From positions 1-61,887 of the forward strand of contig CAJWWK010000007.1 of NCBI GenBank assembly GCA_913048295.1: DNA of 61,887 bases, in the 5' to 3' direction. The position numbers were made by a program, and so were the translations under genes. A model generated the notes under the pieces. That model was not told the DNA's origin. It worked only from the letters and a program-made list of their open reading frames with translations, and did not search any database. This DNA comes from an uncultured Dehalococcoidia bacterium. GTDB taxonomy: Bacteria; Chloroflexota; Dehalococcoidia; Lucifugimonadales; Lucifugimonadaceae. Shown piece by piece: positions 4,475 to 41,469 of this stretch. Numbering within the stretch: the first letter of the stretch is position 1; the number at the start of each line of letters is the position of its first letter.

Positions 4475-4712
4475 CGAACCATCAACATTGTTTGGCTGCT
4501 TTTACTGGTTGTGTGGGTCAATGAGACCGTCGATAGGTTGGAGTCGAGACTCAAACCCCGCGAGTTTGCAGTTCGAAAATCCAGCGACACATCAGGTATC
4601 GCTGAAAACGCGGCGGTCCGAAATACCGATTAATAGTTACCGGTCACAGTTCCTGAATCGAGTTCAGGACGACATCGTGGCACCGTCGCGGCCGATGACA
4701 GCCATCTTTTCC

Positions 4713-5900
4713 CTAAAAATCGAGGTACGGCTCGGAATCTACCTGGGTGAACTCGGTCGGTGGGTGTTTTGCCAGAACTTCAAGGTCGATCTCTGCACCC
4801 CAGCCCGGGCCGTCCGGCACGCGGGCATACCCATCGGTGATTTCGATGGGATATGTCAGCACTTCTTGATAACGGTCGATGAACGAAACAAATATCTCCT
4901 GCATGAAGCAGTTCGGGATGCTCATGTCGAGGTGCAAACTGGCGAGCGTGGAGATCGGGCCGTTCGAGTTGTGGGGAGCAACCGAGGCGTAGTGGGTTTC
5001 GGCTATCGCCGCGATTTTGCGAATCTCAGAAAAGCCTCCGCAGTGGCAGATGTCAGGCTGGATCATGTGAATCGTGTTGGTCGCAAGGAGTGGGCGGAAC
5101 TCCCAGCGGTTGTAGAGCTGTTCCCCGGTCGAGACTGGCACCTGCACCGAGCGTGCGAACTCCGCCATCGCCTCGACGTTGTCGTAGAGAATTGGCTCTT
5201 CTAGCCAGGCGATATTGAAGGGCTCTAGTTCCCGGGCAACACGTCCGGCGCTCATGGGGTCGAGCCGGGCACGGATGTCGAGGCCGATCTCCATTTCGGG
5301 GCCAACGGCATCCCGCACCGCCCTGACAAGCTCTATTCCCGATCGAATGCGTTCCGGCGTGATCACCTGCGGGCCACCCCACGGATAAAATTTTAGAGCG
5401 GTCCAACCTTCGTCTTTTAGACGCAGCGCAGCTTCGGCGTGCAACTTCGGCGACGCTTGCCGTGCGACCGTCTCGGCCGGAACCCCCGGAACAGGTTCAG
5501 TCAGGCCCTCGAACCAACCGTTCGCATACACCCTCACCTTTTCGCGATGCATGCCACCTGCCAGCTGCCATACAGGAATTTCGAGCGCTTTCGCCTTCAG
5601 GTCCCACAGCGCAAGGTCGATCGCTGAAATCGCCGACATCGATACCGGTCCGCCAGTCCATGTCACCCGCCGGTACAGCGACGTCCAGATCCAGTCGATT
5701 CTGAGCGGGTCTTTTCCTTCAAGGAACTTCGCGAAATCGAGTATTTCTGCCTCAAGGGCGGCATCCTTGTACTGCAGCGAGCCTTCACCCCAGCCGGAAA
5801 TACCGGTGTCGGTGTCGATTCGCACGAACAGCCAGTTTGTGCCCGCGGTCTTGTGCACCGGTGTGGCCATTCGGAACACTTTGACATCAGTGATCTTCAA
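4713..5900 (-). CDS. Enolase-superfamily (mandelate racemase/muconate lactonizing) enzyme, variant active site
   Basis: A 395-residue two-domain enolase-superfamily enzyme, probably a sugar-acid dehydratase. The N-terminal capping domain runs to about residue 115, followed by the barrel. Metal ligands are Asp208 (GLDIRAR), Glu234 (WLEEP) and Glu260 (STGEQ); His310 (VAPHNSNGP) corresponds to the galactonate-dehydratase general acid. The second barrel-strand Lys is Lys170 (ALKFYPW). The His that follows the first Asp ligand in galactonate dehydratase (D-x-H) is Arg210 here, so the reaction may differ. It is the third gene of a minus-strand set: another enolase homologue (8165), a lactonase (6990, 22 bp upstream of this start), then this gene. 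Confidence 0.88.
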   Translation of the reverse strand: MKITDVKVFRMATPVHKTAGTNWLFVRIDTDTGISGWGEGSLQYKDAALEAEILDFAKFLEGKDPLRIDWIWTSLYRRVTWTGGPVSMSAISAIDLALWDLKAKALEIPVWQLAGGMHREKVRVYANGWFEGLTEPVPGVPAETVARQASPKLHAEAALRLKDEGWTALKFYPWGGPQVITPERIRSGIELVRAVRDAVGPEMEIGLDIRARLDPMSAGRVARELEPFNIAWLEEPILYDNVEAMAEFARSVQVPVSTGEQLYNRWEFRPLLATNTIHMIQPDICHCGGFSEIRKIAAIAETHYASVAPHNSNGPISTLASLHLDMSIPNCFMQEIFVSFIDRYQEVLTYPIEITDGYARVPDGPGWGAEIDLEVLAKHPPTEFTQVDSEPYLDF

Positions 5901-38384: not shown

Positions 38385-39212
38385 TCAGGGGCTGGCCCCG
38401 TGCATATTGACCCACAATTTAGCGAGGACGATACACTGCATGAACTCGACACCATCGTGCTGCTTGATGTGCTGTATGAGCCTGTCGAGTGCCTCGAGTC
38501 GAGCGAATCTACCGGTCGTGTGGGGGTGCATTGTCAGCATAAACGCCCGGCCCTCCCGGTACGCCCCATCGAACTCCCACTGCCAGGCGGTGAGCACGTC
38601 GTTCGGCGTTGACATCGTTGCGGTCCGACCGGCAACGGGCATGTAGGTGTAGTAGGGGGCGTCATCAAGCGACCAGTGGACGGGCAGTTCAACGATACGC
38701 CTGTCTTTTTCGCCGACGTAATACGGGATGTCATCGCCCATCAGGCTCGAATCGTAGACGAACCCGCGATCATGAAGAAGCTGGAGTGAGTTTGCCGAAA
38801 GTTCCCATGATGGAGAACGGTATCCCTGCGGTCTTTCGCCTGTGATCGATTCGAGAATGTCGGAAGCATGGTCGAGGATTTGTCCTTCATCTTCATCAGG
38901 TTCCAGCGATGAAGGCGGTTCGTGCAGGTAGCCGTGGTGCGCTACTTCGTGCCCGCGTTCCCCGATGTTTTTCAGCAGTTCACGATTGCGCTCGGCCACC
39001 CATCCGGGAATGAAAAATGTGGCCGATATATCGTGTCTATCGAGCAGTTCGAGAATCCTGGGCGTGCCGGTTCTTGGGCCGAATTCGCCCATTGAGATCG
39101 CGCTGGGATGGTCGGCGAGCTCGGGGTTTCGGCGCAGGGTTGCCGACGGGCCGTCGATGTCGAAAGTCAGCGTTACAACGCACCGGGTTTTACCGCCCCA
39201 GAGAGAAGTCAA
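38385..39212 (-). CDS. Polysaccharide deacetylase (NodB-like, CE4)
   Basis: A 275-residue NodB-homology protein. The catalytic base and metal Asp are Asp18 and Asp20 (LTFDID). The metal-binding H-x3-H is His93-His97 in AHHGYLHEPP. The later RSPSWELS and the His of LTMHPH complete motifs 3 to 5. It has no signal peptide, so it belongs with the cytoplasmic PuuE-like and cyclic-imidase-like branch rather than with peptidoglycan deacetylases. It lies 33 bp downstream of the selenoprotein gene on the same strand, so they are probably co-transcribed. The TTG start at 39212 is the only clear one. Confidence 0.87.
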   Translation of the reverse strand: MTSLWGGKTRCVVTLTFDIDGPSATLRRNPELADHPSAISMGEFGPRTGTPRILELLDRHDISATFFIPGWVAERNRELLKNIGERGHEVAHHGYLHEPPSSLEPDEDEGQILDHASDILESITGERPQGYRSPSWELSANSLQLLHDRGFVYDSSLMGDDIPYYVGEKDRRIVELPVHWSLDDAPYYTYMPVAGRTATMSTPNDVLTAWQWEFDGAYREGRAFMLTMHPHTTGRFARLEALDRLIQHIKQHDGVEFMQCIVLAKLWVNMHGASP

Positions 39213-39245: not shown

Positions 39246-39944
39246 TTACTGGCCGTGTTCGATCTGTTCACGCTGCCAGGAGTAGTCGACCTTGCCGGCA
39301 TAGAACTTATCGGGGTTTTCGATTGCCCACAGCTGTTTTCGCATGTTCCAGTTTTCCGGGTCCAGAGCGATACCCGCTCGCCACACCGAGCGCGCCTGCA
39401 CGATCTCGCCTGACTGGTAATGGGCCAGTCCCCTCTCAAAGTGGTCAGAAGCCGGGCCATCGAACGTGGCCTGTGAGAGTTTCAATACCTGACCACCGGA
39501 AATGAACGCGAAAACAAGGCCCGCGGTCTCATCTTTTTTGATATCGAACCCACCGTATTGCTGAAACTGCAATTTCCCTTCTTCGTCTACGAAAATACCG
39601 TTCGGGATGGCGCGATAGCCGAAAATCCTGGCCAGCGAATTTTCTTCGTCCACTACGGTCACGAACTCGGCCCCGGCCTGTTCATGGTAGGGCCGCGCTT
39701 TATCGGGGCCTTGAAGATCGACGGCAACCGAAAGAATGTCGCCATTATTCGACCTGATGTCTGCGTACATCTGCTGCCACACGGGCAGCTGTTCACGACA
39801 CGCTCACCATGATGCCCAGAAGAATATGACCAGCCGCTTGCCCCGGTAGTCGGATGGTCTGACCATCTCACCGGTTACCGAACGCAGTTGAAAATCTGGA
39901 ATCTGGGTCCCTTCGGACACGCTGGCAGGTATCCTCGCCGGCAT
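39246..39944 (-). CDS. Thioredoxin-like (TlpA/redoxin-type) selenoprotein, in-frame UGA at 39806-39804
   Basis: Read through the TGA this is a 232-residue protein. The ATG at 39944 has GGGGGA 7 nt upstream. Residues 12-46 are a textbook redoxin start (PDFQL, then YRGKRLVIFFWASW). Residue 47 is the UGA, followed by Ala48, Cys49 and REQLP. Thioredoxin-like proteins have W-C-x-x-C-R here, so UGA stands for the first Cys as Sec, with one spacer residue fewer (U-x-C). After it come the rest of the fold (IPNGIFVDEEGK with the cis-Pro) and a TPR-like C-terminal helix pair (HFERGLAHYQSGEI). Without recoding only a 46-residue stub would be made. A hairpin fits a SECIS. It is probably a thiol/disulfide or peroxide reductase; a cytoplasmic location is inferred. 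Confidence 0.82.
39773..39789 (-). promoter_or_regulatory. Candidate bacterial SECIS hairpin for the thioredoxin-like selenoprotein
   Basis: GCTGCC (39789-39784) pairs with GGCAGC (39778-39773) around loop CGTGT. The stem begins 14 nt after the UGA and the loop 20 nt after it, with G at the second loop base. These are the expected properties of bacterial SECIS elements. The bases are also coding, as they must be in bacteria. SelB recognition is inferred. Confidence 0.7.
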
Positions 39945-40104
39945 CAAACTTCCCCCACGTTTTACAGCTCGTCTCCGGACGGCGTCGCGCCCATCGGGCC
40001 GTGACGAGGCACATCGTACGCCTTAATTGGGGGTAAAAATCTTGTATTGGTCTCTTGCTTCCGGTCGTATTCCGAAACTGACTTCCTGCAAGAATGTATT
40101 TGGG

Positions 40105-40134: not shown

Positions 40135-41469
40135 TTACGAGTGACGGCGGAGAGTGGACGAGCCGAGCATCAGCACAGCCGTGGCTACGAGAAGAATGAG
40201 GCCCACTATTACCAGGGTCGTCTGGGCACCCAGAGTGTCGACGGCATACCCCATGGGCAGCGCCCCGAGAGGCATCAGCCCGTAACTCATCATGTTCAGG
40301 CTCATAACCCTGGCCCTGAAAGCGTCGTCGGTGGCCTCGATGACGAGGGATTCACCGAGTGTCATTCGAACCGCGCCAGCAAAACCTATTCCGACCATGA
40401 CCGCCAGTCCCACGATATAGCTGCCCGATACCGCCAGCAGGAGCATAGCGACACCGGACCCACCGATACCGAGGACGACTATGATCGGTCCTCTACGGTG
40501 GCCTGCCCGGAGGTTGGCGGTGAGTACAGTCGCAAGGAGGCCACCAACCCCCATCGCTGCCATAAGCCAACCGATTTCGGCGGCGTCGATGTCGTACAAC
40601 CTTCGCGTAAACACTGGAATCTGCATTCGGAACGGCATTGCGAGTAGTGCGGAGGTCAGGCCGGAAATCAGGAGAATGAACACAAGTCGGTTCCGGCAGG
40701 TGTATTGCATTCCTTCTTTGATGTCTGAAAAAACGTTCTTTTTGACCCTGTTCAAATCAGGCATGAACTTCGGGAGCCGAGAGGTGAATAAAACTGCAAG
40801 CACCGACATCCCCGCGACGGCAAAATAGACCGCCTCAGGCCCGGCAACAAGGTAGAGAACCCCCGCGATACCCGGGGCTATGATCGTCATGATCCCCATT
40901 CCGGCAGCGTTCAGTGCCACTGCGTTCGTAATGTTTTCCTTGCCCACCATACCCGGCAGTATCGCCTGCCGCGCCGGCATCTGGAAAGCGAAAGTCACGC
41001 CCTGCAACATTGAGCCGAAGAAGAGGTGCACCCAGTGGATCGAATCGGTTGCGATGAGGACCGCTATCACCAGCGCGAGTACTGCGGCGCCAGCCTGTGA
41101 TATCTGGATTACCAGCCTACGCTCCAAACGATCTCCCGCGACCCCACCGAACAGCGACATCATTAGTATGGTGGGTGCAAAGCCCATGGCGACGAGTCCG
41201 GTGATGAAAGCACTTCCTGTGAGATCGTCGACGAACACCGTCTGGGCGATGGCCTGCATCTGGAATCCGCCCATTCCCAGCATCGATCCAGCCCACAAGT
41301 ATCGATAACCGGGGTGTTTTAGCGATTCGAAGGTGTGCGATATATCGAAGACCGCGCGAGCACGGGTGCCGGTTGGGGTTTTCGGAGTGTCAGAGGTAGA
41401 CGACGCGGCGATTGGATTTGAGCGCGTTTGCGGGCTGTCGCCTGTGCTGGTCGAGTGCTCTTTCGCCAT
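40135..41469 (-). CDS. MFS transporter (drug/siderophore exporter type)
   Basis: A 444-residue major facilitator protein. A polar Ser/Thr/Pro-rich N-terminal tail (about 40 residues) precedes roughly twelve membrane helices. The loop 2-3 motif GVAGDRLERR is the MFS motif A, and the central loop lies near residues 240-260. The pattern matches the MFS_3/EntS-like group that exports small molecules using the proton gradient. No substrate-determining neighbour is visible. It is divergent from the DUF1800 operon. The ATG at 41469 is chosen; GGAG is very close to it. Confidence 0.9.
   Translation of the reverse strand: MAKEHSTSTGDSPQTRSNPIAASSTSDTPKTPTGTRARAVFDISHTFESLKHPGYRYLWAGSMLGMGGFQMQAIAQTVFVDDLTGSAFITGLVAMGFAPTILMMSLFGGVAGDRLERRLVIQISQAGAAVLALVIAVLIATDSIHWVHLFFGSMLQGVTFAFQMPARQAILPGMVGKENITNAVALNAAGMGIMTIIAPGIAGVLYLVAGPEAVYFAVAGMSVLAVLFTSRLPKFMPDLNRVKKNVFSDIKEGMQYTCRNRLVFILLISGLTSALLAMPFRMQIPVFTRRLYDIDAAEIGWLMAAMGVGGLLATVLTANLRAGHRRGPIIVVLGIGGSGVAMLLLAVSGSYIVGLAVMVGIGFAGAVRMTLGESLVIEATDDAFRARVMSLNMMSYGLMPLGALPMGYAVDTLGAQTTLVIVGLILLVATAVLMLGSSTLRRHS

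Follow-up and report, generated by a model that had tools for sequence, protein, structure and literature searches.

Redoxin selenoproteins in which one residue separates selenocysteine (Sec) from the following cysteine, giving a U-x-C site, are already known from publications of 2005-2008. One Prx-like U-x-C sequence stands in a table of Sargasso sequences published in 2005 (PMC1088965, Table 3), whose rows also give at least one Cys homolog for all but one of the ten selenoprotein families that it lists as already known. A 2008 survey tabulated 46 'Prx-like (UGC-containing)' sequences (PMC2398784, Table 2) and counted 855 Cys homologs for this U-G-C family. The U-x-C family is also present in reviews of 2022 and 2026 (PMC9312934, PMC13188914), where U-x-C is mentioned in a few other families as well. 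Additionally, NCBIfam holds the model NF041054, 'ResA-like WAxxUGC motif-containing protein' (WAxxUGC_long). Literature searches returned nothing on 'WAxxUGC' and nothing on a selenoprotein together with Poribacteria. The original prediction for this locus saw a possible new variant in U-x-C; the tables of 2005 and 2008 and NF041054 do not support this.

The gene described here lies in a 61,887-nucleotide stretch of DNA from an uncultured Dehalococcoidia bacterium, hereafter the window, and all features below are on the minus strand. Direct reading and comparison with full-length orthologs place the gene at 39246..39944, encoding 232 residues between an ATG start and a TAA stop. An RBS-like GGGGGAAG (39949..39956) lies just 5' of the ATG at 39944, and the 46 codons that begin there end in W-A-S-W. 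An in-frame TGA follows (39804..39806), assigned to Sec at residue 47 from the reading itself and from conservation in relatives, then GCG TGT (A-C); 185 codons in frame extend from the TGA to the TAA at 39248-39246. Cys49 (39798..39800), the second redox residue of U-A-C, is the sole Cys of the protein besides U47. This layout was reproduced as originally reported. An AhpC-TSA/Redoxin domain at residues 12-127 (39564..39911) is indicated by the predicted fold and by Pfam, in which AhpC-TSA is the best match (65.1 bits against a cut-off of 26, 7.7e-18). TPR-like helices are predicted at residues 167-198 (39351..39446) by a structure model and a TPR_2 match of 21.5 bits, under the cut-off of 27, and the ortholog alignment contains a C-terminal signature, R-K-Q-L-W-A-I-E-N-P-D-K-F-Y, at residues 202-215 (39300..39341). 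Read by eye for a signal peptide or membrane anchor of the TlpA/ResA kind, the sequence before residue 35 shows no extended hydrophobic run.

The nearest model to the window protein is NF041054. Both have a redoxin U-x-C site after W-x-x-x, a similar x-L-P-V-W-Q stretch and a TPR-like tail, but the model has 354 positions, and the window protein scores 132.1 bits against it, short of the curated threshold of 300; none of the NCBIfam models identifies the protein above its cut-off. All 18 A1 members match NF041054 at 1e-10 or better, and its cut-off is passed in one of 60 related genomes. Ten more frames were read over their whole length, and three of these (L038, L181 and L182) exceed the cut-off; the three carry an N-terminal Cx4C stretch that the window protein lacks. 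The group published as 'Prx-like (UGC-containing)' or 'UGC-containing TlpA disulfide reductase family' resembles the window protein in its AhpC-TSA or TlpA-type domain, its U-x-C site and its metagenomic origin, as far as the tables and reviews describe it (PMC2398784, PMC9312934, PMC13188914), and the AhpC-TSA domain (pfam00578) that serves as its criterion is found in the window protein. By the published description, that group differs in its listed motif, U-G-C, and in having Cys homologs (PMC2398784), whereas no C-x-C relative of the window branch was met. ResA, TlpA and DsbE oxidoreductases share the fold and the position of the redox site, but they carry C-x-x-C where the window protein has Sec in a motif that is shorter by one residue, a spacing that had been noted originally and that alignment against C-x-x-C bears out. 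Prx-like U-x-x-C selenoproteins likewise combine Sec at the first redox position with an AhpC/TSA-like fold, and place two residues rather than one between Sec and Cys. What appears from these sequences to be new is a branch of shorter proteins, met with Sec alone, in which the motif Q-L-P-[VG]-W-Q would double as an RNA signal.

A second redoxin with an in-frame TGA was found in the same genome (L003, C4:36117-36362); it reads Y-W-U-T-F-C and looks like a U-x-x-C Prx-like protein. In the 60-genome sample, many other redoxin matches of the relatives also list one TGA. A C-G-P-[DE]-G-C tail occurs about 200 residues after Sec in L118, L130, L131, L136, L143, L148, L153, L154 and L157, and in long forms and Poribacteria a Cys pair sits instead in an extension at the N terminus (e.g. 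C-R-G-E-T-C). The recurring Cys pair, which the window protein lacks, may be a redox partner module.

Conservation of the UGA was followed in two samples. The first comprised 60 related genomes, with the window's own genome included, and yielded 18 full-length orthologs (own included) of 35-100% identity. Each of the 18, together with a longer relative (G040), has exactly one TGA, and all 19 read W-A-S-W-U-x-C-R; the 17 other full-length orthologs share this UGA and its position, and their frames continue uninterrupted to either side of it. For the second sample 84,980 species genomes were scanned, which yielded 325 relatives; the best 80 of these were analysed. All of the best 80 read W-x-S-W-U-x-C-R with no second stop in the matched stretch, in a sample that is biased towards the U-x-C motif because both scan patterns sit at the Sec site, and in which at least eight relatives are, judging by length, the same contigs as in the first. 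The best 80 include records titled Chloroflexi/Dehalococcoidia/SAR202, Poribacteria, Armatimonadia and kin, Acidobacteria, Latescibacterota, Gemmatimonadetes, Thermomicrobiales, Rubrobacter and Nitrospinota (one), and, from the Bacillota, Paenisporosarcina sp. TG20 and Cytobacillus sp. S13-E01. The named genomes are mostly metagenome assemblies, and two relatives are apparently isolates. Of 130 loci, 128 gave the site, and these reduced to 95 distinct sequences. The middle residue of U-x-C, which is A in the window protein and G in the name of NF041054, is G in 50 of these 95, A in 27, R in 6, N in 4, V in 3, M in 2 and D, T and S (L154) in one each.

On this comparative evidence the UGA is a sense codon in the window gene, and two other accounts of it can be set aside. 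The first, that a CxxC redoxin gene has here a genuine stop, a sequencing error or a pseudogene mutation, would agree with the default reading of TGA; of ten nearby open frames that were checked in the window, three end in this codon. The same TGA, however, stands in 18 of 18 orthologs and in all of the best 80 of 325 relatives, the frame is open on both sides, and a hairpin 3' of the codon covaries at synonymous sites. A sequencing error is very unlikely since the UGA recurs in many genomes, and on the conserved codon, the open frame and the hairpin we rejected error and pseudogene alike, leaving this account a negligible chance of being right. Lineage-wide reassignment of UGA to Trp, Gly or Cys, with no part for selenium, gathered no supporting point and is contradicted by the TGA-ended neighbours, by the TGG that encodes the Trp preceding the site, and by the presence of tRNA-Sec, selA, selB and selD in the genome; it was rejected on these grounds and is about as improbable. 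The conserved UGA and the Sec machinery instead strongly support a selenoprotein, as first proposed, and none of the three findings named with the original prediction as refuting it has turned up.

The search for sel genes suggested with the original prediction found selA, selB, selD and tRNA-Sec (selC) in the window's own genome, which is estimated to be 89% complete. Matches to selB and selA score 323 and 508 bits, and selD, at 362 bits, itself has an in-frame UGA. The locus taken to be tRNA-Sec (L006) has the anticodon loop CUUCAAC and scores 50.8 bits against a gathering score of 47, a threshold that it passes only as a 5'-cut match, with its 5' end cut at the contig start; in the whole-genome tRNA-Sec search it scores 45.3, below the cut-off, and ARAGORN run on the own genome did not report it. 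The sole match above cut-off in the genome search (L005) was discarded, being tRNA-Ser(gct) by ARAGORN. Across genomes, selA is above cut-off in 19 of 19 with the gene versus 34 of 41 others in the 60-genome sample (p 0.058), and in a sample of 400 genomes of the phylum it is found at E 1e-60 or better in 26 of 28 U-x-C genomes versus 296 of 372 others (p 0.062), a weak co-occurrence because selA is a common trait. The two U-x-C genomes without selA in the phylum sample are 77% and 86% complete. Among 12 U-x-C genomes chosen from the species scan, ten have selA above cut-off and two have none above it.

A 6-bp perfect hairpin 14 nt 3' of the TGA had been noted originally and proposed as a SECIS element inside the gene directly after the UGA. 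The hairpin, GCTGCC-CGTGT-GGCAGC, was recovered at 39789-39773, and its covariation at synonymous positions supports the proposal. In the predicted element (39773..39789) the codons of L53-P54 pair with those of W56-Q57; an outer G-C pair is added here, and this pair, between Q52.3 and residue 58, is not conserved in the family, where the hairpin lies 14-15 nt from the UGA. The apical part (39779..39783) has a covarying closing pair (39783-39780), a G-U loop (39782-39781) whose G is the 22nd nucleotide 3' of the UGA, and a bulged U (39779), which is the first base of Trp56 and is unpaired in the drawn structure. The bulge is on the 3' side, unlike that of the E. coli fdhF SECIS. Conserved features given for bacterial SECIS elements are a U bulge together with an unpaired G and U next to each other (PMC8704476), and the distance given from UGA to the SECIS loop is 16-37 nt (PMC10778597). 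The window hairpin has the bulged U, the G-U loop and a loop distance within this range. Residue 55 is Val in 46 and Gly in 49 of the 95 distinct sequences, and the loop is accordingly G-U or, in those 49, G-G.

Codon usage and base pairing in the 95 sequences bear on the same element. Codon 53 is CTG in 65, TTG in 29 and ATG (Met) in one; 94 of 95 have a TG-ending Leu codon at position 53, against 38.8% of other downstream Leu codons in the same genes. The pair between the first base of codon 53 and the third base of codon 57 is C-G in 65, T-A in 18, T-G in 11 and A-G in one, and never C-A. In 79 of the 95 sequences the third bases of codons 54 and 55, both synonymous, can pair in a standard way; 10,000 shuffles gave a mean of 33.9 and a maximum of 49, and neighbouring third bases elsewhere in the same genes form standard pairs in 38% of 1189 cases. 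Sixteen sequences are unpaired at this position, 14 of them A-C. When the drawn structure was applied to 70 of the 95 sequences, 98.1% of cells paired, with four of its six pairs invariant. Its covariation was 0.340, against 0.111 +- 0.013 in shuffles and 0.016 to 0.103 in slid versions, in a test that is post hoc as the structure was drawn after the sequences had been seen. Two of five measures did not exceed shuffles (both-side pair changes 2 vs 2.0, further pair types 5 vs 6.9). RNAalifold alone did not report the covarying loop pair, and an Rfam search of 39700-39860 gave no SECIS family, just two chance-level matches. We conclude that the predicted mRNA hairpin 14-15 nt 3' of the UGA has the traits of a SECIS element.

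The hairpin codons encode Q-L-P-[VG]-W-Q, which is near-invariant; the exceptions are Asp, Asn or Ser at residue 52 in long forms, Met53 in L025 and Arg at residue 57 in L180 and L206. Trp56 is found in none of the 44 lower-scoring redoxins read at the site. As the SECIS occupies these very nucleotides, RNA as well as protein probably keeps the motif in place, and the RNA signal would help to fix a stretch next to the active site, a case that can be followed at codon third positions. A further possibility is that the UGA is a selenium-responsive switch, yielding a 46-residue peptide without selenium while the GTG at 39782 separately starts the distal part. A 178-residue open frame does run from this GTG; yet the GTG lies inside the SECIS loop, its product would have no redox site, and only 12 of the 95 sequences use GTG as codon 55. 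We regard the switch as very improbable.

The structure model, built with Cys for Sec, has a pLDDT of 90.8 and a pTM of 0.88, with a helix from residue 48 and a helical C-terminal tail. The folds that match it best are those of DsbE-, ResA- and thioredoxin-type proteins, and the target-normalised TM scores (3gl3 0.87, 4nmu 0.88) point to a ResA/DsbE-type thioredoxin fold. In sequence alignment W-A-S-W-U-A-C-R falls on the W-C-x-x-C of DsbE/thioredoxin-type proteins with a one-residue gap between U and C, which supports the earlier view that the UGA occupies the first Cys position of the redox motif. P114, which we take to be the usual cis-proline position, is invariant in 47 alignment rows. 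From the fold matches, the alignment gap and P114 we infer a probable cytosolic thiol-disulfide or peroxide reductase, and the best explanation of the locus, one we hold with considerable confidence, is a soluble TlpA/ResA-like oxidoreductase with Sec at residue 47, the UGA being read through a SECIS. That Sec is peroxidatic and Cys49 only resolving, making the protein a peroxidase and not a thiol-disulfide reductase, is suggested by AhpC-TSA as the best Pfam match and by the name Prx-like that published tables give to the U-G-C kind (PMC2398784). The alignment with W-C-x-x-C and the DsbE/thioredoxin-type and ResA folds argue the other way, and we consider a peroxidase possible but rather unlikely. 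Peroxiredoxins (AhpC/TSA) have the peroxidatic site P-x-x-x-T-x-x-C; this pattern is absent at the window site, which reads F-F-W-A-S-W-U instead. For the oxidoreductase, Sec47, which sits where the first long helix begins, would attack a disulfide or peroxide substrate, Cys49 would resolve the intermediate through a tight 47-49 selenenylsulfide, a cellular reductant would regenerate the Sec47/Cys49 site, and the C-terminal helical tail may dock a partner.

Checking homologues, as advised with the original prediction, showed Sec to be abundant at this position among relatives, and no C-x-C form was met. The phylum sample of 400 genomes was searched with a 47-member profile carrying Cys at the Sec column, which would favor Cys forms. 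Among the 30 matches at or above 102.6 bits, 29 have the TGA and read U-x-C every time, and the other is a contig-end fragment starting after the site. The site variant in G104 is W-A-S-Y-U-G-C-A. One genome (G357) has three U-x-C matches (L162, L200 and L201), and in its L200 copy TAG replaces the first Trp of W-x-S-W. The 44 lower-scoring redoxins, which came from separate searches (14 + 6 + 13 + 11), have C-x-x-C in 43 cases, the remaining one (L004) being without the first Cys. A C-x-C form occurs neither among these 44, nor among the 29 phylum matches, nor in the best 80 of 325 species-scan relatives. Among 299 genomes from the phylum to which Paenisporosarcina belongs, only the U-x-C gene of the Paenisporosarcina genome itself is far in front, at 278.7 bits versus 109.8 for the next match. 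A tree separates 51 U-x-C rows (one of them, L037, long-branched) by a single branch from 16 CxxC rows, taken from 26 loci tried by their having the CxxC pattern, with support 100/98; with the active-site and SECIS-coded columns removed, 36 U-x-C rows separate from the 16 with 100/97. The U-x-C redoxins thus appear to have one origin, apart from CxxC proteins.

A strict claim that the family exists only with Sec is weakened by the 855 published Cys homologs, unless those are CxxC proteins. Selenium may nonetheless be irreplaceable in the family, with a tight U-x-C pair that works only with Sec and hence has no Cys form, a protein that is a main client of the Sec machinery and is cassette-borne in some phyla, and an active-site-proximal motif written by the RNA signal via the covarying SECIS loop pair; we offer this tentatively, as a proposal that more probably fails than holds. 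If true, a Sec-only family across several phyla asks why cells keep the costly Sec pathway, and the U-x-C site poses the clean question of whether C-x-C in the same fold works. Gene callers that take UGA as a stop will split U-x-C genes.

Linkage of the U-x-C gene to Sec genes is exceptional, yet it is found in three phyla. Paenisporosarcina sp. TG20 (L148) has tRNA-Sec, selB, selA and the U-x-C gene inside 5 kb, in a Sec cassette at L148:764-4925. In a Gemmatimonadetes record (L158) the order is selA, selB, a small open frame, the U-x-C gene and tRNA-Sec, and in a Latescibacterota record (L142) the U-x-C gene is followed by selD and tRNA-Sec. A tblastn search over the best 80 loci found selA, selB or selD only at these three, and an ARAGORN run covering 43 of those loci detected tRNA-Sec nowhere but at the same three. 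The window gene is flanked by frames that read by eye as a polysaccharide deacetylase (38385-39212) and an MFS transporter (40135-41469), each matched in only one distinct contig among 54 loci; the larger neighbour clusters are represented by Poribacteria records. No Cu_amine_oxidN1 partner was found in the own genome; in L116 the N-terminal extension of the Poribacteria kind matches Cu_amine_oxidN1 just above cut-off. The small frame between selB and the U-x-C gene in L158 (about 4690-4926) reads C-H-G-D-R-C-I-P by eye and resembles the N-terminal extension fused in Poribacteria U-x-C proteins.
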